From Clostridiales bacterium (GTDB lineage: Bacteria > Bacillota > Clostridia > Mahellales > Mahellaceae), in NCBI GenBank assembly GCA_030156435.1, contig JASGMM010000005.1, positions 1-51,582 on the forward strand: DNA of 51,582 nt, read 5' to 3'. The position numbers were made by a program, and so were the translations under genes. Under the pieces are notes generated by a model. That model was not told the origin of the DNA and ran no database searches. It saw only the letters and a program-made list of their open reading frames with translations. Positions 3,249 to 23,976 of this stretch are shown one piece after another. The stretch's first letter is position 1. Every line of letters starts with the position of its first letter.

Positions 3249-5429
3249 TCAACCTCCCGTTTTGTTCATGTCGTTTATCTGTTCTTCGGTTATCAATACC
3301 TGACGAGGTTTTGATCCGTCGTATGGACCTATATAACCCCTCGCCTCCATCTCGTCGATCAGGCGTGCTGCCCTCACATAACCTATGCGCAGGCGCTTTT
3401 GCAGGAAAGAAACCGATGCCTGTTGATATTGTACCACCATCTCTAATGCTGTATTAAACAATTCATCCTCATAGGCCGCGTTATCACCATGATCATTTTG
3501 AGATGAGGAGCTTATCTCCTCCATTATCGCCATGTCATAATCGGCCTGCTGTTTATCCTTTATGGCATCGACGACGCGTTCTGCCTCTTTTTCCGATACA
3601 TACGCTCCTTGTACACGCATGGGCTTGGCCGCTCCAATGGGATAGTAGAGCATATCGCCTTTACCGAGCAATTTCTCCGCTCCTGCACCGTCTAATATAG
3701 TGCGCGAATCCACTTGCGATGAAACAGCAAAGGCTATACGTGAAGGTATATTGGCCTTTATGACACCGGTTATAACATCCACAGAGGGCCGTTGAGTGGC
3801 TATAACGAGATGTATACCGGCCGCTCTCGCCATCTGAGCCAATCGGCATATGGCATCCTCAACCTCGCCTGGGGCCACCATCATCAGATCGGACAGTTCG
3901 TCGATTATAACGACAATTTGAGGGAGCGCCTCTTTGGGAGCAACCATTTCATTATATCTGAATATATCTCTCGTGCTCTTATCAGCAAACAATTTATACC
4001 GGGATGTCATTTCCTGCACAGCCCAGTTCAATGCGCCAGCAGCTTTTTTAGGGTCAGTAACCACAGGTATAAGTAAATGAGGTATACCATTGTACAGGCT
4101 TAATTCCACTACCTTTGGGTCTATCATAAGCATCTTGACCTCTTCGGGCGAGGCTTTATACAATATGCTGGTTATAATAGCATTTATGCACACGCTTTTG
4201 CCCGAACCCGTAGCGCCCGCTATTAAAAGATGGGGCATCGACGACAAATCGCCTATTACGTTTCTGCCCGCTATATCCTTGCCCAGGCCAAACGCCAGCT
4301 TCGAAGGGTGATTTATAAATTCTTTGGATTCCAATACCTCGCGCAACAATACAGGTGATATATTTTCATTGGGTACCTCTATGCCCAGCGCCGCTTTGCC
4401 GGGTATAGGCGCTTCTATTCGTACCTCAGGAGCTGCGAGGTTCAAAGCTATATCATCAGCCAGGTGTATTATACGGCTCACCTTTACGCCCGGACCGGGT
4501 TGAATCTCATATCGCGTTATAGCCGGCCCCACGCTGACCTGCAACACTTTTGCGCTGATACCGAAACTGGCCAATGTGTCCTCCAGCATTTTGGCGCTGC
4601 TCAATACATCGTCCTTGCTCTTGGCCTGACGTTGCCCCTTAGCAGCTGACAGCAAATCTAAGGATGGAAAGGTATAAGCTGTATTGGGTGTGATTTTGCT
4701 CGGATGCCCTATCCCTATCTCTTCTTTTTGTTGAAAGGCAACGATCTTTATATCTGATTGCTCGGCATGAGCCTCTTGCGATACCATTTTGACAGCCTCT
4801 GCTTTGTGATTTTTTACATCCGCAGGATCTTCAGCGCTTTGTTGTTCTTCTCGAACGGCCGTTTTTTTTAAACCGGCTAATTTACCAACCACATGTGCTA
4901 TCGTCGCGCTGACAGACCAACCCGTTAAAGCCATAATCAATAAAATTATGGTAGCTATTGCTACTATATAGCTACCAGCTATACCAAACAAACGTATCAA
5001 AACAAAAGCAATAATCGAACCTATAAAGCCCGTACCTTTTGCCATCAAACCGTTGCTTATTCCGTTGCTGATATACATGGAAAACGAGGCATCTATGGCT
5101 GTATTTTGGGGTAAAAACCAAATCTGTATCAGACCTAATATCATGGCGCATAAAGACATAAACATGGACAGGCGGACATAGTTCACCTTCTTGCCCATAT
5201 CCATGAGAAATAATACTCCTATTACAGCTATAGCTATCGGCAAAAGAAAAGCCGCTATACCTATGACGGCAAACCACAGATCCCGCCATTGCGAACCTAT
5301 AATGCCGGCGGCTTGGGTGTATACGCTTACAAAGGTAAAGGCCGCAACGGCCAATATACCTATGCCTATCCATTCACGGTTCCGATTATTTATAGTATTT
5401 TTCCGTTTGGTATATTTCTTCTGCGCCAA
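3249..5429 (-). CDS. ftsK: DNA translocase FtsK/SpoIIIE
   Basis: Membrane-anchored ATP-driven DNA pump that moves chromosomes through the division or sporulation septum. The 726 residues comprise four N-terminal transmembrane helices (about 20-175), a linker, the RecA-like motor with Walker A GATGSGKS and Walker [13 protein letters not shown], and a C-terminal winged-helix gamma domain (about 655-720). The start is TTG after GGTGG. Its place after tepA-ylzJ matches spoIIIE in Bacillus, so this is probably the sporulation translocase, but FtsK and SpoIIIE cannot be separated by sequence alone. Confidence 0.95.
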
Positions 5430-5520
5430 TATAAACCACCATACCTATCATTCTTGTTACTGGTTAATTATATCATCGCGCAGTTTATATTTCCAGTATG
5501 AGTTTATATTTTTGCTGTTT

Positions 5521-5739
5521 TTACACGAGTGTTATAATGCTGCCCGGCTGGAAACGCGCATCAAGATATAGCATCGGATTCGTGCTCAACAGCCTCTCTA
5601 TCCTGTACCTGCCGTCGCTTTGGCGTATGGCCTCCATAACTACGCCATTATAATTTATGATTTCCCTTTCTTTAATCTCCGCGCCGTCCTCTGTACCCTT
5701 GAACACTATTTCCAAAGGAATAATGGTGTAAAGCATCAT
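5521..5739 (-). CDS. ylzJ: YlzJ-like small protein
   Basis: A 72-residue protein that begins [15 protein letters not shown] and carries a PGSIITLV end, resembling the YlzJ family found between tepA and spoIIIE in Bacillus. Function unknown. It overlaps the tepA stop by 4 bases, which indicates coupled translation. There are no membrane segments or cysteine motifs. Identification rests on position and the N-terminal pattern. Confidence 0.75.
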
Positions 5740-6443
5740 GCCTGTTTCCTTTCATCTATCAATTGTTTAAGCTTTATGATAGCCTTGGATACCCCTCCTA
5801 TTTCATCGATTAGGCCGCATCTAGTGGCCTCTTCCCCTATCAGGACCGTTCCTATATCGTTGGCCAATTCACCTGTTTTAAGCATATATTCCTTCAATTT
5901 ATCAATGGTTATATGAGAATGATCGCATATGAACTGCAGTATCCTGTCCTGCATTTTATTAAAGTATTCATAGGTTTGAGGCACCCCTATTATCATGCCG
6001 GACATACGAATAGGATGTATGGTCATGGTGGCTGACGGCACTATAAATGAGTAATCGGTGCTTACCGCCAGAGGAACGCCTATGCTGTGACCGCCGCCCA
6101 ACACCAATGATACCGTCGGTTTAGACAATGTGGCTATCATCTCTGCCAGTGCCAAGCCAGCCTCCACATCCCCGCCTACGGTATTAAGCACTACAAGCAG
6201 TCCCTCTACTTCCCTGCTCTCTTCTACAGCTACCAATTGCGGTATTACGTGCTCATATTTTGTAGTCTTATTCTGAGGCGGTAAAACTATATGTCCCTCG
6301 ATCTGCCCTATAATGGTCAAACAGTGTATATTGCTATCCCTTGTAGCCGTTAATCCGTTATTGCCCATATCTGCAACCGACTTGTTATCTATGGATTCCG
6401 GTGGTTGTGGCGGCGTTTCCTGTTTAATTATATTATTACTCAT
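5736..6443 (-). CDS. tepA: ClpP-like serine protease TepA (translocation-enhancing protein)
   Basis: A 235-residue cytoplasmic member of the ClpP/crotonase fold. TepA has been linked in Bacillus to protein export and degradation of spore proteins. The putative nucleophile is the serine in GGGHSIG and the histidine is in TIHPI about 25 residues later; the oxyanion-region motif [10 protein letters not shown] precedes both. I chose the ATG beginning MSNNIIK because AAGGAG lies 12 bases upstream; a longer frame starts at 6497. It follows the dpaB terminator and heads tepA-ylzJ-ftsK-rimO-pgsA. Confidence 0.88.
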
Positions 6444-6511
6444 ACAAGTATTTTTCTCCTTAAATGCTAGGCTTTTTATCAGTATACCTTTATACAATGC
6501 GGATTATACGA

Positions 6512-6545
6512 AAAGCCCTTTGAATGATACCATCCAAAGGGCTTT
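6512..6545 (-). terminator. Terminator after dpaAB
   Basis: An 11-bp perfect stem, 6512-6522 with 6535-6545, is flanked by A and T runs on both strands. It sits 5 bases after the dpaB stop and upstream of tepA, so it ends the dipicolinate operon. It could act in both directions. Confidence 0.8.
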
Positions 6546-6550
6546 TTGAG

Positions 6551-7141
6551 TTATATGACCGGCGCCAGCATAAGCGGTTCCAATTGCCTGTTTTCCAGCG
6601 CTGCTTCTATTGCTGGTATTATGAGGTCCATGTCGGCTACAACAGAATTTTGTTTTTTAATAGGATCATCTTGGCGGAACGGCACTAGAAATACGTTCTT
6701 CATCATAAGCACTGCGCCAAGATTTCTGGCATTGTTCCCCAATATATCATTAGAGGATATGGCTATCACCACCGGTCTCTGGTTTCGCAAATGGGATTTA
6801 ACTGCCATGAGCACAGGCGTATCGATTATTCCATTGGCCAATTTAGCCAAGCTGTTACCCGTACATGGAGCGACTACCATAACATCCAGCAATTTTTTTG
6901 GTCCTATTGGTTCTACGTCGGTTATAGCTGTCAAGGGCTGTTTGCCAGTTATATTTATCAGTGCGTCAAACAACTGTTGTCTGGTCATAAACCTTGTATC
7001 GGCAGTAGATACGACATTTGATAGAATAGGTATCACATCAGCGCCAACATCGACCATTTTCTGTATTTGAGGAAGCACCTTGTCAAATGTGCAAAATGAA
7101 CCCGTCATGCCCATGCCTATCCTCTTGCCCGTCAAGCTCAT
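6551..7141 (-). CDS. dpaB: Dipicolinate synthase subunit B (SpoVFB)
   Basis: Flavoprotein-like partner of DpaA that makes dipicolinic acid in the mother cell for export to the forespore. The 196 residues show the flavoprotein fold: GMTGSFCTF at the N-terminus and VAPCTGNSLAKLANGI near residue 105. The start was placed at the ATG of MSLTGKRIG, 9 bases after GAGGAGG. The coding region overlaps the end of dpaA by 59 bases, an unusually long overlap for this pair. A terminator follows the stop. Confidence 0.93.
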   Translation of the reverse strand: MSLTGKRIGMGMTGSFCTFDKVLPQIQKMVDVGADVIPILSNVVSTADTRFMTRQQLFDALINITGKQPLTAITDVEPIGPKKLLDVMVVAPCTGNSLAKLANGIIDTPVLMAVKSHLRNQRPVVIAISSNDILGNNARNLGAVLMMKNVFLVPFRQDDPIKKQNSVVADMDLIIPAIEAALENRQLEPLMLAPVI

Positions 7142-12003: not shown

Positions 12004-12103
12004 CATTATTTATGTCGCTTGTGAGAGAGAAAGATTGTAATATTAAATGCCGTCCTAAATAATAGCAATCCTATATAATGTATCGTACAATGCCCGTAGT
12101 TGG

Positions 12104-12152
12104 TGGACGTCAAGGGTGAGTAAAGCGAGTTCATCTTGACACTTGACGTCCA
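12104..12152. repeat. Inverted repeat next to the IS30 remnant
   Basis: TGGACGTCAAG at 12104-12114 is repeated in inverse at 12142-12152, with a 27-base loop. It lies between the csoR promoter and the IS30 fragment, about 60 bases beyond the transposase stop. It may be a terminator-like fold or part of the IS end; no T run follows, so I do not call it a terminator. Confidence 0.45.
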
Positions 12153-12215
12153 TACACTATATATCCTGTTATCTTCCGGCAAGGACGGGGTTTGGGGTAG
12201 AACCCCATCGTTTAC

Positions 12216-12470
12216 TTATACGGCTATTTCGTCAGGCATTTTATAACCCAGTATCCTCCTCGGATAATTGTTCAGCCACCTTTCTGTTTGCTTTATCTCA
12301 TCGTTACTCAATTTCCCTATCTCTGTTCCCTTGGGCACAAATCGCCTTATCATTTTGTTCAGATTCTCGTTCGTACCCCTTTCCCATGCGCTGTAAGGAT
12401 GAGCATAGTATATTTTTACTCTCTGTACTCCTGGGCTTGTTGTAGAGCGCTCTAAGCCCTTAAAATCCAA
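12216..12470 (-). pseudogene. IS30-family transposase, C-terminal remnant
   Basis: About 84 residues matching the end of IS30-type DDE transposases: YYAHPYSAWERGTNENLN, with the third catalytic residue (Glu), then IRRFVPKGT and the LNNYPRRILGY tail. The N-terminal helix-turn-helix and the first two catalytic aspartates are missing, so it cannot be active. Reading frame continues a little upstream (to about 12495) and then runs into unrelated sequence. It marks the low-coordinate edge of the accessory island. Confidence 0.85.
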
Positions 12471-12477
12471 AGATTCC

Positions 12478-12573
12478 GAGGTAGAAAATCTTGTCCGTAT
12501 GCTTTACAACTGCGATGAACGATCTATGAGCATCATCAAGGCAACTGTGAAAGCCGCGTTAGAAAGCCAGTGA
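12478..12573 (+). pseudogene. Truncated 3' end of a plus-strand gene
   Basis: An open frame gives VENLVRMLYNCDERSMSII and continues to a TGA at 12571-12573. Composition is protein-like, and a weak hairpin with a T-rich tail follows at about 12589-12625. There is no start codon or ribosome binding site because the IS30 remnant abuts its 5' side. It could be the end of an HTH-type regulator, but that identification is weak. It is the only plus-strand frame here I consider a gene remnant. Confidence 0.4.
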
Positions 12574-12663
12574 GAATTACTGAATGAATCCGGCTGTTCG
12601 ATTGGGAGCAGTCGTTTTCATTTCCTTTATTAACATCATTGTAGCCGATAATGGCTCATTGCT

Positions 12664-12744
12664 TTAGCACAGCTTCCTGCCGCAACCGCCGCAAAAATGT
12701 GCGCTAGGGACGACGGGAGCGCCGCAGTTGGGGCAGAACTTCAT
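12664..12744 (-). CDS. 26-residue zinc-ribbon mini-protein or remnant
   Basis: Reads MKFCPNCG, then AHFCGGCG, ending in KLC: two CxxC knuckles (Cys4/7 and Cys18/21) of a DZR-type zinc ribbon like those in the larger island proteins. It is in the same frame as the 89-residue gene just upstream, separated only by that gene's TAA and four codons. No clear ribosome binding site precedes its ATG. It may be translated by coupling or read-through, or be a ribbon cut off by a stop mutation. Confidence 0.45.
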   Translation of the reverse strand: MKFCPNCGAPVVPSAHFCGGCGRKLC

Positions 12745-12756
12745 CTGTGGAACAGC

Positions 12757-13026
12757 TTAGTATGTCAGCGGCAGATCCTCATTCGGCGCATTATCGGACA
12801 TAAACAGCCAATCGATGTCCTCGCCGTCCTCGCATAAACCGATGGCTCCGGCGGGTGATACCACATAAAAGCTGTCCTCGTCGATGGGATTTTCACTGTC
12901 GCTTGTCTCAGCAATGACCAGCAAGCCTTTTACGTCGTATCTATCATTGGAAGTGGCAAAGCTCCAGCTCTTGCAGAGTGTGGCGGCAAACCCCGCCGCC
13001 TCCAGCATGGTGTCAAATCTCTCCAT
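12757..13026 (-). CDS. Hypothetical acidic 89-residue protein
   Basis: Not recognised. It starts at an ATG 9 bases after a strong AAGGAGG. The protein is soluble and acidic toward its C-terminus (CEDGEDIDWLFMSDNAPNED), with no membrane segment. It lies 14 bases after the 442-residue gene, so it is part of the island operon. Directly after its stop the same frame encodes a zinc ribbon, so an ancestral form may have ended in that ribbon. Confidence 0.65.
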   Translation of the reverse strand: MERFDTMLEAAGFAATLCKSWSFATSNDRYDVKGLLVIAETSDSENPIDEDSFYVVSPAGAIGLCEDGEDIDWLFMSDNAPNEDLPLTY

Positions 13027-13040
13027 TACGAAAAGCCTCC

Positions 13041-14369
13041 TTATTTGAATAACAGATTATTACACCGCTTGCAGCGGTCATTTTGTATGGGGTTCATCAT
13101 AGAGCAGACGTTGCAGTAGATGATGCGGTCTTTGGATTTATCATATTTCTCGTATGTGCCGAATCTTGGGTGAAACCGCACCCTGTCGCCAACGGAAAGA
13201 TAGTCGTACATATGCCGCCCGCTGTCCTTTTCCACGATGGTCTTTTTCTTGCCCGCATCGGTGTTGATGATGGTGGTATATTCCGTATAGGTTCGCCAGT
13301 TGTCGTCCTCGCCGCCCCGATGCTCGCTTTTCTCCTTGCTGTACTTATTGACGACCACGCCCTCCCACATGGGCTGCTTGGTCTTTCGCAACGCCAGCAG
13401 ATTAACGACCAGCATGACAAGAGCAATGCCAACACCGATGACAAGGGATTCTCCAAACGGGAAATCGTTCATCAACAGACCGGCGACGGGAAAACCCATG
13501 AGCGGCACGAAAACTAATATCCACATACAGCCAATGGAGGATTTCTTATTCTTCTGCGCGGCGGCCAGTATCTCCGGGCAGTTATATCTATCAGAAAAGC
13601 CGACCAGCCCCGCCCTGCTCTGTGGGGGCGCGGGAGTTGCCGCATGGTTTGGCTCCATCGGCTTCGACGTTGCCGGATTTGCCGCCGTTCCGCAGCCGAT
13701 GCAAAATTCGGCTCCCTCCGGCAGCGTTGCGCCGCAGACCGTACATACGCCGGGGGCGCTGGCCTGTGTTTTTGCGCCGCAGTCCGAACAGAAAGCCGCG
13801 CCCTCCGGCAGCTTGTTTCCGCAATTAGAACAAAACATATCCGTATCACTCCTTGCTTCGATTATTTGAGGCGCGGCGGGTTTCCTCGCCGCTGTTTTCT
13901 TCTTTTTTCCGCCTCCGGCTGTGCGTATGACAAGCAGCAGCAAAAGCAGATAACCGATGGGGGCGAGGATATGGTAAATGATCGCCACCTCGCCCATCTC
14001 ATCAAATTCGCACAGCATGGCGGGCTTGTTGACGTAGGGGAAAATAGCAAGGTAGCGGATGCGCTCGGAGCGCGTTTCGCCCTCGTCTAAGCTCGGCCAC
14101 GCCTCGTCGCTGCTATACATCACATGACCTCGGTACTCCTTGCCGTTTACCACAAACCAATAGCCCTTGGAAACAGTGCGGGAGCGATTTTGCCCCGCGT
14201 CGGTATCGTCCAGCCCCGCCTGATAGCTATCCACTGTACCCATGACGGAATCGCCCCATATTGCCAGAGCCAGCGTGGAGAGGCTCAAATACATGGCAAA
14301 CAGCAGCACGGCGCAAATCAGGATGAGGATGGGCAGGGGGATGTTTTTTCTCGTTTTCTTCTTTGCCAT
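13041..14369 (-). CDS. Membrane protein with three zinc ribbons (DUF3592-like)
   Basis: 442 residues. N-terminal helix (about 11-38), an extracytoplasmic domain resembling DUF3592 (about 40-128), a second helix (130-150), then a cytoplasmic segment with two zinc ribbons (Cys180/183/194/197 and Cys209/212/223/226), two further helices (about 280-300 and 308-330), a second small domain, and a C-terminal ribbon (CNVC ... CKRC). The chosen ATG (MAKKKTRKN) has AAAGGAG 7 bases upstream; a longer frame to 14570 overlaps the upstream gene and is rejected. Function unknown; ribbons suggest protein-protein contacts. Confidence 0.75.
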   Translation of the reverse strand: MAKKKTRKNIPLPILILICAVLLFAMYLSLSTLALAIWGDSVMGTVDSYQAGLDDTDAGQNRSRTVSKGYWFVVNGKEYRGHVMYSSDEAWPSLDEGETRSERIRYLAIFPYVNKPAMLCEFDEMGEVAIIYHILAPIGYLLLLLLVIRTAGGGKKKKTAARKPAAPQIIEARSDTDMFCSNCGNKLPEGAAFCSDCGAKTQASAPGVCTVCGATLPEGAEFCIGCGTAANPATSKPMEPNHAATPAPPQSRAGLVGFSDRYNCPEILAAAQKNKKSSIGCMWILVFVPLMGFPVAGLLMNDFPFGESLVIGVGIALVMLVVNLLALRKTKQPMWEGVVVNKYSKEKSEHRGGEDDNWRTYTEYTTIINTDAGKKKTIVEKDSGRHMYDYLSVGDRVRFHPRFGTYEKYDKSKDRIIYCNVCSMMNPIQNDRCKRCNNLLFK

Positions 14370-14382
14370 CTCGACGCTCCTT

Positions 14383-14766
14383 TCATTGTTGTTCGTAGTC
14401 CCGCTTTTCACGCCAGCCCACGCCAAACAGATACAGAACGGTAAGCAGGAAAAGCGGTGGCAGCGTGAGCGCGGCATATGAGCGAAGCGGAATGAACAAC
14501 AGTACTCCTGCCGCCAGTTGGATATAGGCCAGCGTCCGGCACCAGCGATGTCGGTGGAGCCGCCCCGCAAAGGCCAGCCCCGCGGTGGCCGTTACCATAG
14601 AAAAGATGTACGCGATTCCAGCCGCAAAGCAGCCCGCTCCAGCGTAAGTATAATCCAGCGCCGCGTTGTCAATGAGATTCAAGCACCAAAGCAGCATGGG
14701 CAGGGCGGCAAGTAGCATCAGTACGGAAGAAACCCGCAGAAGAACCCGCTTTGGTTTGCTATTCAT
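14383..14766 (-). CDS. Four-helix integral membrane protein, unknown
   Basis: 127 residues with four hydrophobic segments (about 10-30, 40-62, 73-93, 97-118), the last linked to a charged tail WREKRDYEQQ. Start placed at MNSKPKR, preceded by AAAGGA; the longer upstream frame lacks a binding site. It ends 13 bases before the three-ribbon gene and its start overlaps the end of a 44-residue small ORF. Unrecognised family. Confidence 0.7.
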   Translation of the reverse strand: MNSKPKRVLLRVSSVLMLLAALPMLLWCLNLIDNAALDYTYAGAGCFAAGIAYIFSMVTATAGLAFAGRLHRHRWCRTLAYIQLAAGVLLFIPLRSYAALTLPPLFLLTVLYLFGVGWREKRDYEQQ

Positions 14767-14893
14767 ATATTTTTCCTTTCGGGCAGCGGGATTTGATATA
14801 CTCCCACACAAAAGCGAACGGCTCGGGCGCGGCGTATATTCTGTTCCGCACAAACACGCTCTTTATCCGTATTAGGTCTTGCTTTCCTGTCAT
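14759..14893 (-). CDS. Small 44-residue ORF in the island operon
   Basis: Encodes MTGKQDLIRIKSVFVRNRIY, then continues with APEPFAFVWEYIK and ends KGKIYE. It fills what would otherwise be a 142-base gap in an operon with 12-50-base spacings: it begins 15 bases after the 842-residue gene and its stop overlaps the next start by 8 bases. The ribosome binding site is weak (GGGGT). Basic, soluble, no known domain. The spacing is the main support. Confidence 0.45.
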   Translation of the reverse strand: MTGKQDLIRIKSVFVRNRIYAAPEPFAFVWEYIKSRCPKGKIYE

Positions 14894-14908
14894 TTCGATA
14901 CCCCGTTA

Positions 14909-17437
14909 TCAATCATATCCTTGACCGTCATACATCTCCATGCCCATTTCAGCGGCAAAGGAGCGTGCCTCCGCGAGAAAGCTCTGCCCCGAAGGAGATT
15001 CCAGCCGTTTTGTTTGTTGGTCGCTGGCGTCAAAGGAATAATACACATATGCAATGGTTTCTCCGGTTTCGTTCACCCGCCATTTGCCGGGGGAGAGCGG
15101 GGTCACCGCGATGTACCTGTAGTAGACGCAGGCGGGGCCGCTGGGCACAGAGTCTGCTCCGGGGATCTGGACGGATTGAGACAAGGAAATCTGGCTTCCC
15201 CTGATTGCCGACCAGTCGTCGTTCGGCCTGAGCTCCATGTGATAGAGGTCATCACTGATTGTAAGCAGTCCAGTGGAGGGGTCATAGTCATACTCCCGGT
15301 AGCTGTCCTGATCCACTTCCGCGTCGAGTCCAATGACCAGATGATCTGTGACTCGATTCGCCTGCAAATCACGATTGACAGCCATAATCTCGTAGCCGTA
15401 GCCGTCATAGTAATGAATGCCAGGGTCAAAGTCATATCTTTCGACCAGATAATATTCGGTATCGTTCTCCTCCTGCCCCAGCGGGATCACCGTACGCTTC
15501 TCCGTCACCTTAAACTCCTGCGTCAGCGTAGGTTCATCTTCCTGCGGGTCGTAGCCCTTGTTCCATAGGCGAAGCTGGGTGGGCAATCCCGCCTGTATGT
15601 AGCCCACGATGGTGGCGTCAAGCGAAGCTCGCCCGTCCTTATCAAGCCCCACCGTCCAAGCCCCGCTCACAGGTACACCCGGCCGGGAGATTACCACGGT
15701 TGCGCCTGCGTATTTACTCTTTTCACCATCGGGGATTTCCTCAATGATTTCAAACTCCAACGGCGCATTGAGCGCCTGACGCAGCTCCGTGGCGTTTTTG
15801 CTGTAAGCCTTGAGGGAATCATAGCGCATCCGCTGTGCAACGTCCGAAAGCACAGGCTGGAGCCTTTCGCCCAAACGCGCCATATACTGCTCGATGCAAT
15901 ACTCCTTGGCGGCGTCTGTTTCGGGAAGAAGCCCCGTGGTGTAGGCGTGTAGACCCGCCTCATTGGTGGCTACAAGCTGCTCCTCCGGGTTATCGTAGAA
16001 GTAGCGGGAGCTGTAATTTTCCATGATACCGCGCAGGGCAGCGTTGAACTTTTCCGGGTCGTCGCCACGGTTTTTGTATAGTCCCATGATTCTTGCGTAC
16101 CATTCGGCCTCCGTCCACGGGTGTATCTCCTCGTTGTAAGCGATGACCACATTAAACAGGGCGTCCTTATAGGTTTGGTTGGCTGCGACCATGAACTTGT
16201 TCAGGGAGTAGTCAAGGGCGATGACCCCCAGCATGGAGAGCTGTACAATACCGGTGGTGATTTTTTTATAGTCGAGCATTGCCACGCCAACATTGTAGGA
16301 CAGCTTATACGCCTCCGCCGCCACCGTTTCGGCAGATTCGTTGCCCTTATATGCGTCTATCATGGTGTCGCCCAGCGACAACGTGGAAAGCCCCAACAGC
16401 ATATAGCCGGTTTTCTCCAAGACGCTTGCCGCCTGCTTGTAGCCGCCGCCCTGTGCCGCCAGCTCGCTCACGTCGGTCAGCCAGCCTACAACCTCATGTA
16501 CAGCCTCCGCTTCGGCGTCACCGAGATTTTGTTGGTATTGCATGGGTAAGAACTGCTTGTAAAACGTGCGCAGCAAACTGTCGCCCACCTCGCCGGGCTG
16601 TCCAGTCTGTTCATACTCTCGCAGTATCGCTATCGCGGTTTCATCGTCCAGACGCTTGCTGCTGAATTTGGACAGCAGAGCGTAGGGCGAACCGGCGTCC
16701 CGCAGGGTGACGGTGCAGTATTCCGAAAGATGGTCGGTGGTGATGGTGACGGTGTTGTCAGCGGCGTTTACGGTGTAGTCCACAAGCTCCCATTCGCCGG
16801 TTTCGGGGTTGTAATACTCCGCCAGCACGGAGCCTTCCTCATCGGTGGAATCGGTTTCGCTTTCGTCATAGGGCAGCGTGATAGTCAGAAGCCCGTCAAA
16901 CTCGGTGCGTTCACCGGCTGAAATGTCATAGGCCGTACGTGTGCCGCCCTCTATGCTGTCGCTGTCGGCGGACAGCTCTTTTATCGACACCTTTTCTCCG
17001 TCCATCGCGTTATATGGGCCGAAATCAACCGTCACGCCGCTGTCGGTTGAAACTGCGGTCTGCCCTTCCTGCAAGGTAAAGCTGTCGCTTTTCTGTACGG
17101 AAGGGCGCTTGACCCCGCCGCCGACCACAAACCCCGGCCAGCCGTAGAGGGCTACCGCCACGATCTGTATGATAAGTAGCACGGAAAGCACGATGCACAG
17201 CGTATTGCGCCCGCTGTTTCTTTTCGGTGCTGCGGCACTTTTTCTTTTTGGCGTCGCAACGGGCGGAGTATATTCTTGAGGCTGCACCTCGGTTTTAGTC
17301 TGCGTCTGCGGCACAGGTTTCGGCTGTGCTGCGGGAACAGGATTCGCGGGCGCGTCAAGCACCGCCACGCCGCATTTGGCGCAGAAGCGAGCGCCGGTAT
17401 GAAGCTCCTTGCCGCAATTCGTACAATATTTTCCCAC
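14909..17437 (-). CDS. Zinc-ribbon, single-pass membrane protein with large extracytoplasmic region
   Basis: 842 residues. N-terminal zinc ribbon (Cys5/8/19/22), a Pro/Gln-rich linker (30-75), one transmembrane helix (about 79-98) and a roughly 740-residue outside region. The outside region begins with a beta-rich domain (TLPYDESE ... NPETGEWELVDY ... TTDHLSEYC) and has a second conserved stretch with IPDGEKSKY and a Gln/Gly-rich repeat ending DPQEDEPTL. Both are shared with the lipoprotein at 18175, so the two are paralogues. GTG start, AGGAGG 7 bases upstream; this site overlaps the stop of the previous gene. Function unknown. Confidence 0.75.
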   Translation of the reverse strand: MGKYCTNCGKELHTGARFCAKCGVAVLDAPANPVPAAQPKPVPQTQTKTEVQPQEYTPPVATPKRKSAAAPKRNSGRNTLCIVLSVLLIIQIVAVALYGWPGFVVGGGVKRPSVQKSDSFTLQEGQTAVSTDSGVTVDFGPYNAMDGEKVSIKELSADSDSIEGGTRTAYDISAGERTEFDGLLTITLPYDESETDSTDEEGSVLAEYYNPETGEWELVDYTVNAADNTVTITTDHLSEYCTVTLRDAGSPYALLSKFSSKRLDDETAIAILREYEQTGQPGEVGDSLLRTFYKQFLPMQYQQNLGDAEAEAVHEVVGWLTDVSELAAQGGGYKQAASVLEKTGYMLLGLSTLSLGDTMIDAYKGNESAETVAAEAYKLSYNVGVAMLDYKKITTGIVQLSMLGVIALDYSLNKFMVAANQTYKDALFNVVIAYNEEIHPWTEAEWYARIMGLYKNRGDDPEKFNAALRGIMENYSSRYFYDNPEEQLVATNEAGLHAYTTGLLPETDAAKEYCIEQYMARLGERLQPVLSDVAQRMRYDSLKAYSKNATELRQALNAPLEFEIIEEIPDGEKSKYAGATVVISRPGVPVSGAWTVGLDKDGRASLDATIVGYIQAGLPTQLRLWNKGYDPQEDEPTLTQEFKVTEKRTVIPLGQEENDTEYYLVERYDFDPGIHYYDGYGYEIMAVNRDLQANRVTDHLVIGLDAEVDQDSYREYDYDPSTGLLTISDDLYHMELRPNDDWSAIRGSQISLSQSVQIPGADSVPSGPACVYYRYIAVTPLSPGKWRVNETGETIAYVYYSFDASDQQTKRLESPSGQSFLAEARSFAAEMGMEMYDGQGYD

Positions 17438-17449
17438 GTCCGCACCTCC

Positions 17450-18124
17450 TTATGGCCTTACCAGCGCCACAAGCGCCGGTGTCCCGTCGGGCGTATCCAT
17501 TGTGCCGACGGCGTACTGTTTTCCGTTTTGCTCATAGAACTGCGTCAGGCGAATGGTTCCCGCGCCGGACGCCCACAGGCCGCCGTTTTCCCACTTGCCG
17601 CTGAATACGCCGTCCTCCATATCCGCTTCGTCGAAGCTCTCGCCCTCGTTTGCCCAAAAAATCTGATACCAGTCGAGCGTGAGGCTCAGGCTCTCCGCAG
17701 CACCCGCAAGGGCGACATTGAGAAACTCCATAGCGCCCGCGTCATATTCGTTATTGGGGTCGTAAATAATCAGTGCTTTCCAGCTCCCGGTCAGCGATCC
17801 GATATTGTCGATGATATTCGCATCGGACGGAACTCCGTCATAAGCCACGTCCTCTGTGTACCAGAGAAAGTCCTCCAAATCAGGGCGTTCCTCCGTGGAC
17901 AAGCTCACGCCTGTTACCTCCGGTGCGGGAATACTGCCGCTTTCCTTGGTCGCGGGCGGTGTTTCTTCCTCCGGCGACGGTGTGATAGGCGCTGTTTGCT
18001 CCGTCTCCGGCACAGGAGAGTCCTTTCCATCTGCTGACCGCAGATTGGGCGGTATGATGAGAATACCTATTACAAGCATCAGCAGATTGGCCGCGATAAG
18101 CACAGCAATCAAGCCTTTCTTCAT
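17450..18124 (-). CDS. Membrane-anchored extracytoplasmic protein, unknown
   Basis: 224 residues: an uncleaved-looking N-terminal helix (about 4-25), a Ser/Thr/Pro/Glu-rich spacer (30-70) containing EVTGVSLS, then a compact domain of about 150 residues rich in aromatic residues (GSWKALIIYDP, DWYQIFWANEGE, GKWENGGLWASGAGTIRL). The motif TGVSLS also occurs near the start of the mature lipoprotein encoded upstream. Ends 12 bases before the 842-residue gene. No family recognised. Confidence 0.7.
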   Translation of the reverse strand: MKKGLIAVLIAANLLMLVIGILIIPPNLRSADGKDSPVPETEQTAPITPSPEEETPPATKESGSIPAPEVTGVSLSTEERPDLEDFLWYTEDVAYDGVPSDANIIDNIGSLTGSWKALIIYDPNNEYDAGAMEFLNVALAGAAESLSLTLDWYQIFWANEGESFDEADMEDGVFSGKWENGGLWASGAGTIRLTQFYEQNGKQYAVGTMDTPDGTPALVALVRP

Positions 18125-18174
18125 TTAATCAGCCCTCCTTGATTTGCTTTGCCCCAGACGGAGTAAGCCTTGCC

Positions 18175-20238
18175 CTAATCAATTTTGGTTCCCTCTCCAT
18201 AGACGGTTACCGTGTTCTCTCCTTCATAAATAGTCGCGGCGCTTGAAAGATGAATAATGCCGTCTTCGGAAACAAAGTTAACCTTAACAGATAAAGATAA
18301 TTCTTCGCTTTTAAATTCACAAGTCGCCGTAGCGGTGGCCGGGTTATATTCATATGGCCCGCCCGGTAATAGGAATGAGCCCATATAACTATCATCCGAT
18401 CGGAACCCCAATTGTTCCTCGTGGCGCATAAAGGTAAAGTGTCCCGAGTCGCTTTCTTCACTCACGTTAGAGTTAAATGTCAAGAAATAAGTACCCAAAA
18501 GCTCCTCCAACGGCAGTCCGCCAAGCGTCACCTCCGTTATCGGCGCGGAGAGCTTGAAGCCCAACGTCAGCTCTGGCTCGTCGCTATCGGGGTCGTCGCC
18601 GGGTTTGAACAGCTGCAGCTCCTTGGGGCAACCGGCCTGCAAAAAGCCCAGCAGGGTAAACTTGGTGGAGGCCCCGTTCGCGCCCTTCAGCGTACCGCTC
18701 CAGCTCTCCTTCACCGCGTTTTCGGAAAGCGGGGCGAAGCGCAGGGCGTAGCCGTCATACTGCGACTTCTCGCCATCGGGGACATCCTCCACGATGTTGA
18801 AGGTTATGGTTTGGTTAAAGAACGCTTTGACCTCATTCAACGCGGCCAGATACTCAGCCTCGGCCTTGCGCTGCATATACACGCTAACCGATTGTATTAC
18901 CGGGTAGAGGCGTTCATAAAGCTGCGCCTTGTAAGCGCCCACTAAGGTTTCGATTTCCGCCTGGGTCGGGTCGGGGATGGTGACGGAACCTTTGGTTCCC
19001 TTATCCTCAATATCCGTAACGACAATGGCCTTTTCCATATCGCCCAGCGTCCAGAATACACGGGCGTAGCGGTCTATCTCCGCTTCGATAGCAGCCTTGG
19101 CATCGGCTTCAGCGGGGTTGGCTTCAGCTATGTCGATCAACACCTGTCGCCAATCCTTCAAGCTGCGGGCTTTCCAGCCATTACCCCCATCCAGTGTGCC
19201 GGAGAATTGGTCGTTGAAATAGACATAAACCTCGTCTATCTTATCCATCTTCATGGCAATGCCTTGCTCAAACATACTGCTTATGGTGTAGTCAAAGATG
19301 AACAGGCCGCTGGCGGCAAGCCCCCATGCGGAGGATTCGGCATAGGAGAGCGCCAGCATCGCCGTGTCCTTATACAAACCAAGGGTATCGGCGTCTGTCT
19401 TTTCCGTACTCAGCATAACCGCGCCGATTTTCACTGCCGCCGCCACTTTGCCCAGCTTGTTCATTTTTTCATAGGCCGACGTAGCCAGCGCGGTGTCAAA
19501 GGTCGGGCTGCCGAGGGATGTCATGTTCAGGATCGTACCTGTGAGGTCTGTGGCAAAGCCCGCTTCTCCGGCTGCTCCGGCCACGCCGCCCAAAAATCCG
19601 TTATAGCCGGTGAGGAGCCGCGCCGCGAGATTGACTGCTTCCTCTCCGTCCGCGCCGCCACCCGCCACATATTCGCGAAGCGTTTTCATAGCTTGCTGCT
19701 GGTCAATGGCGGTAACGTCTGAATAAATATCGGTGATATAGGCGCTGCGTTTGCCCTCGTTTCTGACATAGAACGCGCCAAAGGTGGATAGATGGTCGGT
19801 GTAGATGATAAGCTCATTCGTGGCCGCGTCCACCTCGAACAGCACATCCTCCCATTCGCCTGTGGTTTCGTTTTTGTACTTCGCGCCAACGCATTTTGCT
19901 GGGTCCTGCCCCTCCTCGCAGTAGGAGGTATCATAGGGGATACGCAAGGTGATGAAATCATCCAGCTTGCTCATGTCGCCCAGCTTAAAATCGTAGGCTT
20001 CTATCTTGTATCCTTCATCCTTGTTTTCATCCACGGGCAGCTTGGCCACGGTAAATTCCGCTTCACCGTCCAGCACATAATCGCCCAGCTCTATGCCGAT
20101 GCCGTTTGACAGGGAGACGCCTGTAGCCTCCGGCGAAAGCGTTGCCACGTCGCTTTTGCCGCCGACTCCACCGCCGCATCCGGCAAGGCCGCCTAAAAGC
20201 AGCGCCGCCGCGAGTAAAATAGATACTGTCTTTTTCAT
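18175..20238 (-). CDS. Large lipoprotein, paralogue of the zinc-ribbon surface protein
   Basis: 687 residues with a lipoprotein signal peptide ending LAGC (Cys21), so it should be anchored outside the membrane. The domain order matches the outside part of the 842-residue protein: a beta-rich domain (RIPYDTSY ... NETTGEWEDV ... YTDHLSTF), a mostly helical middle, then VPDGEKSQY and LQAGCPKELQLF ... DSDEPELTL. The final part differs. The start MKKTVS was chosen because GGAGGA lies 7 bases upstream. The beta-rich part recalls ZU5/Ig-like modules, but this is only a resemblance. Confidence 0.75.
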   Translation of the reverse strand: MKKTVSILLAAALLLGGLAGCGGGVGGKSDVATLSPEATGVSLSNGIGIELGDYVLDGEAEFTVAKLPVDENKDEGYKIEAYDFKLGDMSKLDDFITLRIPYDTSYCEEGQDPAKCVGAKYKNETTGEWEDVLFEVDAATNELIIYTDHLSTFGAFYVRNEGKRSAYITDIYSDVTAIDQQQAMKTLREYVAGGGADGEEAVNLAARLLTGYNGFLGGVAGAAGEAGFATDLTGTILNMTSLGSPTFDTALATSAYEKMNKLGKVAAAVKIGAVMLSTEKTDADTLGLYKDTAMLALSYAESSAWGLAASGLFIFDYTISSMFEQGIAMKMDKIDEVYVYFNDQFSGTLDGGNGWKARSLKDWRQVLIDIAEANPAEADAKAAIEAEIDRYARVFWTLGDMEKAIVVTDIEDKGTKGSVTIPDPTQAEIETLVGAYKAQLYERLYPVIQSVSVYMQRKAEAEYLAALNEVKAFFNQTITFNIVEDVPDGEKSQYDGYALRFAPLSENAVKESWSGTLKGANGASTKFTLLGFLQAGCPKELQLFKPGDDPDSDEPELTLGFKLSAPITEVTLGGLPLEELLGTYFLTFNSNVSEESDSGHFTFMRHEEQLGFRSDDSYMGSFLLPGGPYEYNPATATATCEFKSEELSLSVKVNFVSEDGIIHLSSAATIYEGENTVTVYGEGTKID

Positions 20239-20257
20239 GTCGGGTTCCTCCATTTCG

Positions 20258-20833
20258 TTACCAATCACTGATTTCCGCACGCACTCCTGTTTCGTGCCAA
20301 ATCTTTTGCGAGATTTTCGTGACGCTTTGCCTGTCGATCAGACCGTGCGGCAGCCGGACGCGCAGCATTTCGCCGTGAGCCCCGAAGGACAGGCAGATAT
20401 GCTCTTTGTCGATTTGTACCTCCCGCAGCCGGACACCGTACACGCCCTCGCAGCCCCACTGATAAACCTTGTTCCCAAGAAGCAAGCCGAAGGCGGATAC
20501 GATGGTTTCCTCCGCCTGTTTTTGTTCTGGCTGATTTCCCAAAGTAACAACTGACGAGGGTACGGTCAGGATCCGACTGTCGTATATAAGTACCTGTTTT
20601 TACAAGGGTGTTTTTTATTGCCCAGAAAGGGTCAGGATCCGACTGTCGTATATAAGTACCGCTGCACCAAGCAACCGGCTTTGTCGGTATAGCAGGAACA
20701 GCGCCACAGCGGTCAAACCGCCGCAGATAATCGCGGCTTCTGTCTTTTGCGTTATGAGAAGCAGCACGGTCAGAAGTATGGCGGCCACGGAAAGCGCGGC
20801 ATATAGATTTCTCCTGTTTTTTATGACTTTCAC
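20258..20833 (-). pseudogene. Two-helix membrane protein split by a 66-bp in-frame insertion with stops
   Basis: The 5' part starts at GTG (20833) after GAGGAGGT and encodes two transmembrane helices, then VLIYDSRILT. After that come LSGQ and a TAA. The same 10 residues VLIYDSRILT recur 66 bases downstream and lead straight into VPSSVVTLGNQPEQKQ and a soluble domain of about 95 residues ending at 20258. Removing one repeat plus the 35-base spacer would give one continuous protein of about 169 residues. The downstream part has no start site of its own. It is therefore a disrupted gene, or a reversibly switched one. Confidence 0.7.
20564..20660 (-). repeat. Pair of identical 31-bp direct repeats inside the split membrane gene
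   Basis: Copies at 20564-20594 and 20630-20660 are identical over 31 bases and are separated by 35 bases containing two in-frame stops. The period, 66 bases, is a multiple of three, so recombination between copies would restore the frame. Confidence 0.9.
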
Positions 20834-20859
20834 CGCTGGCTTCACCTCCTCGCAATACC

Positions 20860-20888
20860 ACAATAGGGCAAATCGGGGCAAATGTCAC
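20860..20888 (-). promoter_or_regulatory. Candidate promoter of the surface-protein operon
   Basis: On the minus strand GTGACA (20883-20888), a 17-base spacer and TATTGT (20860-20865) lie 26 bases upstream of the GTG start. The -35 is near consensus and the -10 weaker. It follows directly after the terminator of the LuxR-type gene. Confidence 0.5.
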
Positions 20889-20910
20889 CCGACGAAAGTA
20901 CAGTTTTACG

Positions 20911-20941
20911 AAAAAAACTACCTGTACTTTAGTACAGGTAG
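20911..20941 (-). terminator. Intrinsic terminator of the LuxR-type gene
   Basis: A perfect 10-bp stem (20918-20927 with 20932-20941), 4-base loop, followed on the minus strand by seven T. It sits 31 bases after the LuxR-type stop. The same dyad is about 30 bases upstream of the next promoter, so it could also serve as a binding site. Confidence 0.85.
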
Positions 20942-20972
20942 CCATAAAATGCTGTATTTACAAAGGTTTTCG

Positions 20973-22397
20973 CTATGCCTTGGTTTGATTTTTGAGAAGG
21001 GAGCTAATAAGCTCCGCCCGGCTGCCCACATCGTACTTGGAGAAGATATTGCTCACATGGAACTTGACCGTGCTTTCACCGATAGACATGGTGGCGGCAA
21101 TTTCCTTATTGGATTTACCGGCAAGGATAAGTGAAAGCACTTCGTTTTCTCTTTCAGTCAAAGGGTCTATCAATTTTACTTGACAAATGATCGCCGATTG
21201 CTGTTTCTCGCTCATGTCGGCATAAGCGGAAAGGTAAGCATGGTTTTTAAGCAGCATGGTAAGCTGGCGGTTCAGCGGGGGCAGGATCACGAGGGCAACG
21301 CACACCACTGTCAGCGCAATCACCGCCACCTCCGCGTCGGGAAGCCGGATAGAGGTGATAACGACTCCCAGCACATCGCCGCAGAGCACGCCCAGCACAT
21401 TTGCGGAAAGACCGACGCCGAACATTCTGGCGGGGTTTTGTGAGTAATCCAACGTTTCGCCTATAATGCTCCACCAGAACAGGTCGAAGATACCACAGGC
21501 CCCCAGCATCAGCGTATCGATCACGAAATAATCCACAGTGCCTCGGCCAAGCAGCATGAAGGTAATAAAGGCGGCAATTATCATGCCCATGCCAACATAG
21601 AGAAATAGAGAACGCTGCACTCTGTTCTTGGATGAGAGGTTTCGCATAAAAACAAGGGCGACGATATACGGCACAGCCCAATACCAGCTCACAAGGCCGG
21701 TCAAATGATCAAACGCCGGGTTGATGACTTGATACATCAGCCCCGAAGTCACAGTGATGACAGCGACAAACAGGAACAGCACCAGCATCGGCTTTCTAAT
21801 ATCACCGGGAGATTTACGCTCCGTTTCCGGCGTTGTTACCGCAGTCGTTTCCTCGTCAGTTCCGGCAGGGAGTATCGCGGTAAGCGCCCCGCCGAGGATA
21901 AGGCAGAACATGGAGAGAAGCAGCCCGATAGTGTGCGACAAATTGATGGCGACTACGTTGAGAGCAATCATTATGATGTTGGAAAAAATCAACACATCGG
22001 CGCAGGATTTTATCCTCTCATCTTTCAGCGTGTACCTTTTGAGGAAAAAGCCCCATGCCGCCACCGCACAGGCACTGGCATAGCCTGCCGTCACCAGCCC
22101 CACAAACCAAAGCGCGGAGGGCGCGAATAAGAACGGCGCTGTCGCAATCAGGCAAATTGCCATTCCGATTATCATAGCGGATTTTGCCCCGCTCGGCGTT
22201 TTGATAAAGAAGCCACAGGAGAACAGCCCCGCAAAGTGAGCGACAATGGCTGCGAGTATATATGTATTCGACTGTGCGCCAAAGGCGTCTATCGTGCTGT
22301 ATAGTACCTGTCCTTCAAAAACGAAAGAGAGCAGATAGGCAAAGAGGAATGAAAAAGCGGCCACGGACAGCACTCTATAATTTCTGATGCTTTTCAC
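20973..22397 (-). CDS. LuxR-type regulator with N-terminal MFS-like membrane domain
   Basis: 474 residues. The first about 390 form a polytopic membrane domain of around 12 helices resembling a major-facilitator transporter. The C-terminal about 65 are a LuxR/GerE helix-turn-helix: LTERENEVLSLILAGKSNKE, then STVKFHVSNIF. This architecture belongs to a class of membrane regulators common in Coriobacteria and some Clostridia; ligands are mostly unknown. Its ATG overlaps the stop of the upstream excisionase-like gene (ATGA). It probably controls the adjacent operon, which is inference from position. Confidence 0.85.
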   Translation of the reverse strand: MKSIRNYRVLSVAAFSFLFAYLLSFVFEGQVLYSTIDAFGAQSNTYILAAIVAHFAGLFSCGFFIKTPSGAKSAMIIGMAICLIATAPFLFAPSALWFVGLVTAGYASACAVAAWGFFLKRYTLKDERIKSCADVLIFSNIIMIALNVVAINLSHTIGLLLSMFCLILGGALTAILPAGTDEETTAVTTPETERKSPGDIRKPMLVLFLFVAVITVTSGLMYQVINPAFDHLTGLVSWYWAVPYIVALVFMRNLSSKNRVQRSLFLYVGMGMIIAAFITFMLLGRGTVDYFVIDTLMLGACGIFDLFWWSIIGETLDYSQNPARMFGVGLSANVLGVLCGDVLGVVITSIRLPDAEVAVIALTVVCVALVILPPLNRQLTMLLKNHAYLSAYADMSEKQQSAIICQVKLIDPLTERENEVLSLILAGKSNKEIAATMSIGESTVKFHVSNIFSKYDVGSRAELISSLLKNQTKA

Positions 22398-22603
22398 TTC
22401 GGCACCCCTTGTTCACCGGAGGCTCCGCCGCTCCTGACCCATTCATCAATTTCGGCAGTTTTGAAGCGCCACAGCTTGCCGACCTTTGACGAAGGCATAT
22501 TTCGCTGGTTAATCCAGCGCATGATCGTGTGTCGTTTTACACCAAGGTAATCGCATACCTCCTGCAGGAAAATCCATCTATCTTGAATGTTGTTTTCTGA
22601 CAT
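22394..22603 (-). CDS. Excisionase/MerR-like helix-turn-helix DNA-binding protein
   Basis: 69 residues with the HTH_17 pattern: WIFLQEVCDYLGVKRHTIMR, then WINQRNMPSSKVGKLWRF and EIDEWV. Such proteins act as excision factors or small regulators. No integrase or recombinase is nearby, so a regulatory partner role for the overlapping LuxR-type gene is as likely. GGAGGG precedes the ATG. Confidence 0.85.
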   Translation of the reverse strand: MSENNIQDRWIFLQEVCDYLGVKRHTIMRWINQRNMPSSKVGKLWRFKTAEIDEWVRSGGASGEQGVPK

Positions 22604-22651
22604 AATAATCCCTCCGCGTTGGCCGATTCAGCTGACGATATGTATAGAGTT

Positions 22652-22680
22652 ATTATAGCAGTATTCAGAGGCAAAGACAA
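22652..22680 (-). promoter_or_regulatory. Promoter of the HTH-LuxR pair
   Basis: On the minus strand TTGTCT (22675-22680), a 17-base spacer and a perfect TATAAT (22652-22657) lie about 49 bases before the excisionase-like ATG. Confidence 0.65.
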
Positions 22681-22771
22681 TTCGTTTTTTTGTTTTATGT
22701 ATTATTGCGTTGATTGATTTTGATGTTGCTCGCGGAAGCCGAAAAGAACCAAACACAAACTGACAAGCAGG

Positions 22772-22798
22772 GCAAGGTAGTACACACCTTGCTTTTTT
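22772..22798 (+). terminator. Plus-strand intrinsic terminator of a vanished gene
   Basis: GCAAGGT (22772-22778), 7-base loop and ACCTTGC (22786-22792) are followed by six T on the plus strand. No intact plus-strand gene leads into it, so it is likely a relic of a gene deleted when the island formed. Confidence 0.6.
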
Positions 22799-22799
22799 G

Positions 22800-23240
22800 C
22801 GTCAAAATTCCTGTCGGGCTTTCTCGCAAAAAATGCTTGTTGGGGAGTATCCCCATATGCACTAACTTAGATATTTGATAGTTGCAAGCGATTCCCACAC
22901 TTTCTTTTTTTGACTTTCAAATTTATTAAAGCATTTTCTAACTCTGAAAATAGTACATTATCACCGCAAAAACCAGTTACCAGCTAAAGATTCAGGAATT
23001 TTATTTCTGGCCAAATGCTTCTATCAGTTTATTTAGAATATGCGCACTTAAAAAATAGAGAAGAAGAAGGGCGTTATCAATTAGATTGTGATGTGCTAAA
23101 TATACCTCCCAATGAGAGGAAAAATGCCGGATCAATCAGATATAGCCGTAAAGAATATTTTTGCAGATATTACGGATGACATGATGGCCTATTTTCTCCG
23201 TGCAGGTGGCTCACTTCTCCCGGAATTTACACATGAGCCG
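22800..23240. other. Decayed region with small ORF fragments
   Basis: No intact gene. Two overlapping plus-strand frames look partly protein-like: 23015-23179 (54 residues, starting MLLSVYLEYAHLKNREEE) and 23124-23279 (51 residues, starting MPDQSDIAVKNIFADITDD, with GAGAGGA upstream). The second runs 35 bases into the tcdA 3' end. They may be frameshifted parts of one lost gene. The base composition is more AT-rich than the island. Confidence 0.35.
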
Positions 23241-23244
23241 GAGG

Positions 23245-23976
23245 CTAATCAGTTACCAAGCCGGCTGAATAGCCTATGAGGTCCTTTACAACTTCTCCGG
23301 CTATGATGAGTCCCGCTACAGAAGGCACAAAGGATATACTGCCCGGAATTTGGCGTTTATTTGAATCTCCTTCTATAGAACCCTGTGGCTTAATAGGCGG
23401 TTCAGTGGAATATAAGACCTTAAGATGGTCGATGCCGCGTTTTTTTAGCTCGCTTCGCATAACCTTAGCCAACGGGCATATGGAGGTATCATATATGTCG
23501 GCTATTTTAAAAGCTGTGGGATCGAGTTTGTTGCCTGCACCCATACAACTTATTATAGGTATGTTCTTTTGTTTACAGGCTAGCACCAATGCTATTTTAG
23601 CCGATACGGTATCCACAGCATCCACCACATAATCCAAATCATCGCTTATTATGCCGTCCACATTGTCGGAAGTAATGAATTGCTGTATAGCTGCCACTTC
23701 TACGTTCGGATTTATATCCAGCATTCTTTCTTTCATAACCTCTACTTTGGGCCTACCTACAGTTTTATGAGTGGCATGGATTTGACGATTAATGTTGGTC
23801 AAACAAACAGTATCGTCATCCACCAACACAAAACGGCCTATATTTGACCGTATCAGTCCTTCGACAGCGAAACTGCCTACACCGCCTACCCCACATACGG
23901 CTACTTTTTTATTTTTAAGTACATTTAACGCCTCTGAGCCTATAAGAAGCTCGGTACGTGAAAATGGATGAAGCAT
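23245..23976 (-). CDS. tcdA: tRNA threonylcarbamoyladenosine dehydratase (ThiF/E1-like)
   Basis: ATP-dependent enzyme that cyclises t6A37 of tRNA to ct6A. 243 residues with the nucleotide-binding VCGVGGVGSFAVEGL, the LVDDDTVCLTNINRQ segment and DAVDTVSAKIAL typical of the TcdA/YgdL group. The N-terminus HPFSRTELLIG is also typical of the family. The start chosen (MLHPFSRTE) follows AGGGAAGGA; a frame six codons longer lacks one. It lies after 6S RNA and aspS, as yrvM does in Bacillus. Confidence 0.92.
   Translation of the reverse strand: MLHPFSRTELLIGSEALNVLKNKKVAVCGVGGVGSFAVEGLIRSNIGRFVLVDDDTVCLTNINRQIHATHKTVGRPKVEVMKERMLDINPNVEVAAIQQFITSDNVDGIISDDLDYVVDAVDTVSAKIALVLACKQKNIPIISCMGAGNKLDPTAFKIADIYDTSICPLAKVMRSELKKRGIDHLKVLYSTEPPIKPQGSIEGDSNKRQIPGSISFVPSVAGLIIAGEVVKDLIGYSAGLVTD

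Follow-up and report, generated by a model that had tools for sequence, protein, structure and literature searches.

A horizontally acquired operon of modular surface proteins and its presumed membrane-embedded LuxR-type activator in a Clostridiales bacterium

We analysed a stretch of 51,582 nucleotides (the window: positions 1 to 51,582 of contig JASGMM010000005.1, assembly GCA_030156435.1) from a Clostridiales bacterium of the Mahellaceae. An initial annotation, made from the sequence alone, had described ten open reading frames (ORFs) at 12664-22603 as one operon of zinc-ribbon membrane proteins and paralogous surface proteins under a membrane LuxR-type regulator. All ten are present and co-directional on the minus strand, but as a count of genes the figure does not hold: H and G are the parts of one broken gene. 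A is shortened by a stop codon. The ten ORFs correspond to nine ancestral genes in the order J-I-HG-F-E-D-C-B-A. The features of the locus, where TM stands for transmembrane and HTH for helix-turn-helix, are as follows.

12020..23268, no strand: whole insertion, 11,249 bp (∼11.25 kb), delimited by comparison with the same-genus genome G002
22394..22603, minus strand: J, HTH_17/excisionase-type small DNA-binding protein (Pfam HTH_17, E=1e-14), overlapping I by 4 bp; an optional member
20973..22397, minus strand: I, 12-TM LuxR-type membrane regulator with a C-terminal GerE HTH at residues 411-465 (PF00196, E=7e-19)
20911..20941, minus strand: intrinsic terminator after I (CTACCTGTACTAAAGTACAGGTAG-T7), its position kept in nearly all I-HG spacers
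20883..20902, minus strand: presumed operator for I (TGTACTTTCGTCGGGTGACA), in register with a palindrome kept in other loci
20860-20865, minus strand: presumed -10 element, a consensus match
20258..20845, minus strand: HG, two TM helices and a PH-like domain; start codon approximate; fused in all relatives
18175..20238, minus strand: F, lipoprotein (lipobox LAGC) with a ZU5-like domain, a helical middle and a C-terminal lipocalin-like barrel
17450..18124, minus strand: E, N-terminal TM anchor and extracellular domain of no family; 53-84% identical in five loci
14909..17437, minus strand: D, N-terminal cytoplasmic zinc ribbon (Pfam), TM segment, ZU5-like/helical ectodomain and exchangeable C-terminal module
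14383..14766, minus strand: C, four-TM protein; 60-82% identical in L004, L005 and L041
13041..14369, minus strand: B, four TM segments with zinc ribbons between the TM pairs (Zn_Ribbon_1, E=7e-11) and a C-terminal beta domain
12664..13026, minus strand: A, small soluble protein whose zinc ribbon at the C-terminus (12664-12744) is cut off by one stop codon
12216..12470, minus strand: apparent IS30-type transposase fragment at the left edge of the insertion, recognised by eye from its translation

The block is a horizontally acquired insertion. In G002 (locus L035) the sequence is 97% identical to the window through position 12019 and resumes at 23269, with 10 other bases standing where the window has 12020-23268, and the F gene is absent from both same-genus genomes. 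GC content is mostly 51-58% within the operon, against 39-48% in the host sequence outside. The ends of the insertion carry no att-like direct repeats, the exchange being a 10-base replacement without target duplication. As no relative of F was found among plasmid records, phage records or viral contigs, we can name no known carrier element. Beside the IS30 fragment lies the end of a remnant ORF on the plus strand (12462-12572, KDSEVENLVRMLYNCDERSMSIIKATVKAALESQ), possibly the tail of another mobile-element protein. In three separate lineages the operon adjoins tcdA (ThiF), on different sides, which may mark a hot spot or a coincidence: the 3' end of tcdA is the operon site in the window (23245) and in the related locus L078 (12726-12869), while in L080 (4561-13399) the operon sits between aspS and tcdA-csoR.

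The nearest F proteins come from a Tissierellales metagenome-assembled genome (91%), Eubacterium aggregans (82%), Tissierella pigra (81% over 598 residues) and Proteiniclasticum ruminis (71%). L004 and L005 keep the whole arrangement I-HG-F-E-D-C-B-A, and parts of it are found in L003, L006, L037, L039, L041 and L044. Because this gene order recurs in other bacterial families, we conclude that the composition of the operon is not due to chance. The initial annotation's idea of a conserved unit, for which it had proposed a check of co-occurrence, is upheld: the lipoprotein, its ribbon-bearing paralogue and the LuxR-type gene do occur together in other genomes. Scans of all the ORFs with Pfam, NCBIfam and PADLOC gave matches limited to the HTH of J, the GerE domain of I and the zinc ribbons of B and D, and a literature search, of limited open-access coverage, found no named system of this composition, in keeping with what had been claimed.

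The conserved core of the system is I together with HG, and it is spread more widely than the operon of the window, occurring with other surface proteins in many anaerobes that are only remotely related. In our searches of the class and the phylum, which were samples and in which contig ends cut several loci, the HG profile was found in 19 of 399 genomes of the phylum. I lies upstream of HG, on the same strand and within 5 kb, in 24 of 29 loci examined (at 138-290 nt in 20 of these), and two of the five loci lacking an upstream I end at a contig edge within about 300 bases. There are two core subfamilies, type 1, which includes the window, and type 2 (for example L083, L087 and L095); L095 belongs to G002, so that the window's own genus also has a type-2 locus. 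What stands beside the core varies: SLH proteins in L076 and L088, a VWA protein in L078, an RHS protein with a paralogue of Lgt (prolipoprotein diacylglyceryl transferase) in L087, Lgt with a HELMH metallopeptidase-like ectodomain on a D anchor in L006, and GGDEF proteins with an EAL domain in L044 and, after HG, with an HD domain in L090.

Several of these neighbours merit separate mention. Lgt paralogues recur in or beside the loci (L006 12271-13059; L040 11320-12096; L046 950-1738; L087 5692-6588) and are perhaps dedicated to the cargo lipoproteins. The type-2 loci L083, L084 and L095 share a set of proteins of no family, namely an exported protein of 956-971 residues, a Yip1-like membrane protein, a membrane protein of 185-188 residues and a soluble protein of 300 residues. 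In L044 the gene of a 7TM-GAF-GGDEF-EAL protein (3647-6781) shares 4 bases with the beginning of I, and this suggests a link to cyclic di-GMP in that lineage.

I belongs to the published family of 12-TM LuxR regulators, the DadR/CadR/HcdR kind. Its 12 hydrophobic segments (residues 9-375) precede the GerE HTH, and it is 58-71% identical in relatives. Of the LuxR regulator with an MFS-like domain that had been described, the GerE HTH behind 12 hydrophobic segments stands and the MFS assignment does not, there being no MFS match in Pfam. In Eggerthella lenta the 12-TM LuxR proteins DadR, CadR and HcdR activate neighbouring genes on small-molecule cues (PMC9734109). I shares with them the 12 N-terminal hydrophobic segments, the C-terminal GerE HTH and the adjoining regulated genes, regulation by I being predicted from position; it differs in that their targets are catabolic enzymes, whereas I adjoins surface and membrane proteins, with HG as a fixed partner and with a palindrome that is conserved. 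J, whose reading as an HTH protein is confirmed by Pfam, is full-length in L075 and L076, while L003 and L006 have truncated copies and many loci have none.

The spacer between I and HG has a constant anatomy: the I stop codon, an intrinsic terminator, a palindrome, a -10-like hexamer ∼28 nt further on, a Shine-Dalgarno sequence and HG. Terminator, palindrome and -10 element, the promoter elements being consensus matches, keep a fixed register in nearly all of 22 spacers. I is thus not a plain member of the single operon that had been postulated, being set apart from HG by the terminator and a probable promoter. The palindrome reads TCATCCTTTCGAANGATGA in type 1 and TCACCCN5GGGTGA in type 2, and in most loci lies ∼40 bases upstream of the presumed transcription start. 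Scoring 12 type-1 and ten type-2 spacers against 1000 dinucleotide shuffles of each, we found that eight of the 12 type-1 spacers beat at least 990 of 1000 shuffles, and that a ninth ties at 10/1000; L005 scores 24/1000, at another position, and the palindrome of L080 lies outside the scored stretch, yet is visible in the spacer comparison. Among the type-2 spacers seven of ten beat at least 997 of 1000 shuffles, L083 and L093 carry palindrome variants with a shorter spacer, and the site of L095 lies outside the scored stretch. The window operator is the only such site in its genome, even with up to 3 mismatches allowed. G002 carries the same palindrome in front of the B-like gene as well, and close to the 5' end of a divergently oriented cargo operon. 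LuxR-type activators classically bind a palindrome centred near -40. Since the terminator is followed by a palindrome at this position, I probably comes from a transcript of its own and switches on the one that follows. In type-2 spacers (for example L087, 4846 and 4880) the TCACCC...GGGTGA of the terminator stem is the presumed operator sequence found 34 bases downstream, and the terminator may thus serve as an additional binding site.

HG encodes a single protein in all relatives. In the window a 66-bp insertion, flanked by 31-bp direct repeats (20660-20630 and 20594-20564), keeps the reading frame but brings in two stop codons and so splits the gene. Lying between direct repeats, it might in principle act as a reversible on/off switch instead of being plain damage. 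The AlphaFold 2 model of HG (predicted local distance difference test score, pLDDT, 84) has two long helices, seven strands and a C-terminal helix, the topology of the PH superfold, and Foldseek matched it mainly to PH, PTB and FERM domains (SSRP1, REC114, PTB and FERM on top) at E 0.004-0.1; this model and that of F were built from shallow alignments, the two holding 14 and 24 sequences. B has four TM segments and, besides the two ribbons that Pfam recognises, a third CxxC pair, and its C-terminal domain weakly matches DUF7489 (E 0.016-0.12 in four relatives). B is conserved in many loci, and shorter forms with ribbon and two TM segments likewise recur in many; it is decayed in L003 and L005. 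The severed ribbon of A persists as a small ORF (12664-12744), and the 137-residue fusion is intact in L004 and L005. The TM-anchored E, the four-TM C and the three ribbons of B had all been correctly described, the third ribbon of B being the CxxC pair.

F and D are paralogues (30% identity, E=7e-48) that share the TTGEWE/ETGEWE, TDHLS, PDGEKSxY and DEPxLT motifs, one anchored by a lipobox and the other by a ribbon and TM segment, as had been proposed. In the model of F (pLDDT 69) the helical middle is poorly predicted, residues ∼30-160 resemble ankyrin ZU5 by Foldseek (probability 1.00, E=0.011-0.019, with low TM-scores), and the matches to the C-terminus include many lipocalins (E 0.03-0.08, probability ∼1). 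A PDB sequence search with the F/D profile found nothing, and Pfam finds no ZU5 domain in F or D; we treat the ZU5 and lipocalin likenesses, which come from a predicted structure, as leads. A motif TDH[LF][ST] occurs in 13 of 14 F/D family members at the C-terminal end of the ZU5-like domain, where its residues in F are H149-L150-S151. In CARD8 and PIDD a self-cleavage motif ends the ZU5 domain (PMC3210808), and for ZU5 domains on bacterial surfaces Zhang et al. 2012 (PMC3482391) have proposed a role in freeing proteins at the cell surface.

D is a mosaic in which anchor, core and C-terminal modules are exchanged independently. Compared with L005, the window D shows 65-93% identity through residue 660, beyond which the figure drops to 25% and on to 0; against L041 identity is 17-45% over residues 121-600 and then rises to 75-100%; against L004 and L006 it is 62-77%, only across the ribbon-TM anchor. 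F-type proteins are found without D in L003, L037 and L039, and D without F in L041. As either occurs alone, F and D look like two exchangeable cargo proteins, and the single membrane-spanning complex that had been suggested is rejected as an obligate one. The anchor of E is exchangeable too: in L094 (7732-8655) an E-type domain (32% identity) follows a zinc-ribbon N-terminus in one fused protein, in a genome where neither I nor HG was seen next to it. E was also considered as a relative of the C-terminal barrel of F, and a profile comparison gave no similarity.

Our preferred reading, held with moderate confidence, is that the locus, acquired horizontally, is a modular operon for surface proteins controlled by a LuxR activator embedded in the membrane, and that it serves to display these proteins in response to a ligand and perhaps to release them. 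The 12-TM part of I would sense a small molecule or a membrane signal, and its GerE domain would bind the palindrome just downstream of the I gene, activating the HG-F-E-D-C-B-A transcript. HG, with its two TM helices and PH-like domain, and B, with its TM segments and zinc ribbons, would be the constant membrane parts, and inside the cell B, D and A are probably joined to one another through their ribbons. The exchangeable cargo shown outside would be F, held by lipid, D, held by ribbon and TM segment, and E, held by TM segment. In F and D the ZU5-like domain adjoining the anchor probably cleaves itself at H-L/S, such that the ectodomain would stay non-covalently attached and could be shed, and the lipocalin-like end of F may bind a hydrophobic ligand.

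Known systems resemble parts of this scheme. The layout of D recalls Firmicutes TcaA/YvbJ, which have a cytoplasmic ribbon, one TM segment and an extracellular domain; unlike these, the operon has three ribbon proteins under one LuxR-type regulator, and we found no sequence match to the TcaA/YvbJ families. With bacterial ZU5 surface proteins and ZU5 polymorphic toxins (PMC3482391), F and D share a ZU5-like domain on the N-terminal side of a large exported protein with an exchangeable C-terminus. They differ from these in that F and D themselves contain no RHS or SpvB, are anchored by lipid or by ribbon and TM segment, have H[LF]S in place of CxH, and come with no toxin or immunity gene that we could find. 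With the ZU5-UPA (FIIND) of PIDD, CARD8 and NLRP1 (PMC3210808) they share an HF/S-like motif ending the ZU5 domain, ahead of a beta strand; unlike those proteins they are bacterial and extracellular and mostly have Leu at the Phe position, no UPA part was recognised in them, and cleavage in F and D is putative.

A number of observations weigh against our preferred reading. HG occurs without I in L081 and L082, and I without HG nearby in L097, L100 and L103. The Foldseek E-values for ZU5 and lipocalin are weak (∼0.01-0.08). The candidate cleavage site has Leu instead of Phe in most family members, UNC5b, a template with Leu at that position, is not described as self-cleaving (PMC3210808), and the D of L041 lacks the motif His. 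The window palindrome is degenerate (11/18, equalled by 97 of 1000 shuffles), though in register; with HG and A broken as well, the window copy may be inactive.

This last point leads to the most probable of the alternatives, that the operon is a decaying passenger, functionless in this host. We consider this quite possible, if somewhat less so than our preferred reading, with which it is compatible as regards intact copies elsewhere. The disrupted HG and A, the degenerate operator and the insertion-sequence fragment at the edge speak for it, as does the decay of other copies (B in L003 and L005). On the other hand, I, F, E, D, C and B are still open, F is 91% identical to a relative of another family, and intact copies elsewhere (L004) show a functional ancestor.

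A second alternative is a module for envelope stress or membrane homeostasis, in which I senses the membrane state, HG, B and C act in the membrane and the lipoproteins are accessory. The constant parts are indeed membrane proteins, and Lgt paralogues and a Yip1-like protein recur nearby. However, large variable ectodomains and frequent loss and exchange better suit an outward-facing adaptive trait, and the operon in this form is absent from both same-genus genomes, making this explanation unlikely. Less likely still is a polymorphic-toxin-like locus for contact-dependent competition, with F and D as delivery backbones and the exchanged C-terminal modules as effectors freed by ZU5 cleavage. 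C-terminal modules are swapped on conserved backbones (D of the window versus L005), ZU5 is known as a releasing domain of polymorphic toxins (PMC3482391), the related core locus L087 has an RHS protein, and the D of L006 has a HELMH peptidase-like ectodomain. Yet the Pfam and PADLOC scans of the operon proteins revealed no toxin family, the C-terminal barrels resemble lipocalin-type binding domains, and, whereas an immunity gene would be expected to change in step with the C-terminal type, none of the genes downstream of D does so, C being 60-82% conserved across types. An anti-phage defence island, a role the initial annotation had entertained, is very improbable: despite the horizontal spread, the resemblance of J to MAD1 and a very weak Diphtheria_T match in the F/D helical domain of L041, PADLOC gave matches only at the level of the HTH and no other MAD match among the operon proteins, J scores 67.7 bits against NCBIfam MAD1, below the cut-off of 80, and is lacking in many loci, neither a nuclease nor an NTPase nor any other defence domain was found, and phage and plasmid records gave no match. 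The Diphtheria_T match (L041 D, E=0.034) was not used, as the same domain in other members shows none.

Members of the 12-TM LuxR family, whose known roles lie in the metabolism of drugs and polyphenols in the gut, are seen here to stand over surface proteins outside the Coriobacteriia as well, and the palindrome supplies a candidate operator for the family. Many Bacillota proteins annotated no further than 'zinc ribbon domain' or 'hypothetical' can be grouped as one modular, horizontally moving unit. Going further, one might see here an unnamed, widespread class in which a membrane LuxR activator drives a fixed 2TM-PH/zinc-ribbon core displaying interchangeable ectodomains that are shed by ZU5 self-cleavage, an extracellular bacterial counterpart of the PIDD/NLRP1-type switches; we offer this tentatively and think it rather doubtful. 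Should the ZU5 motif indeed cleave, these proteins would provide a simple extracellular model of an autoproteolytic fold from animal innate immunity.

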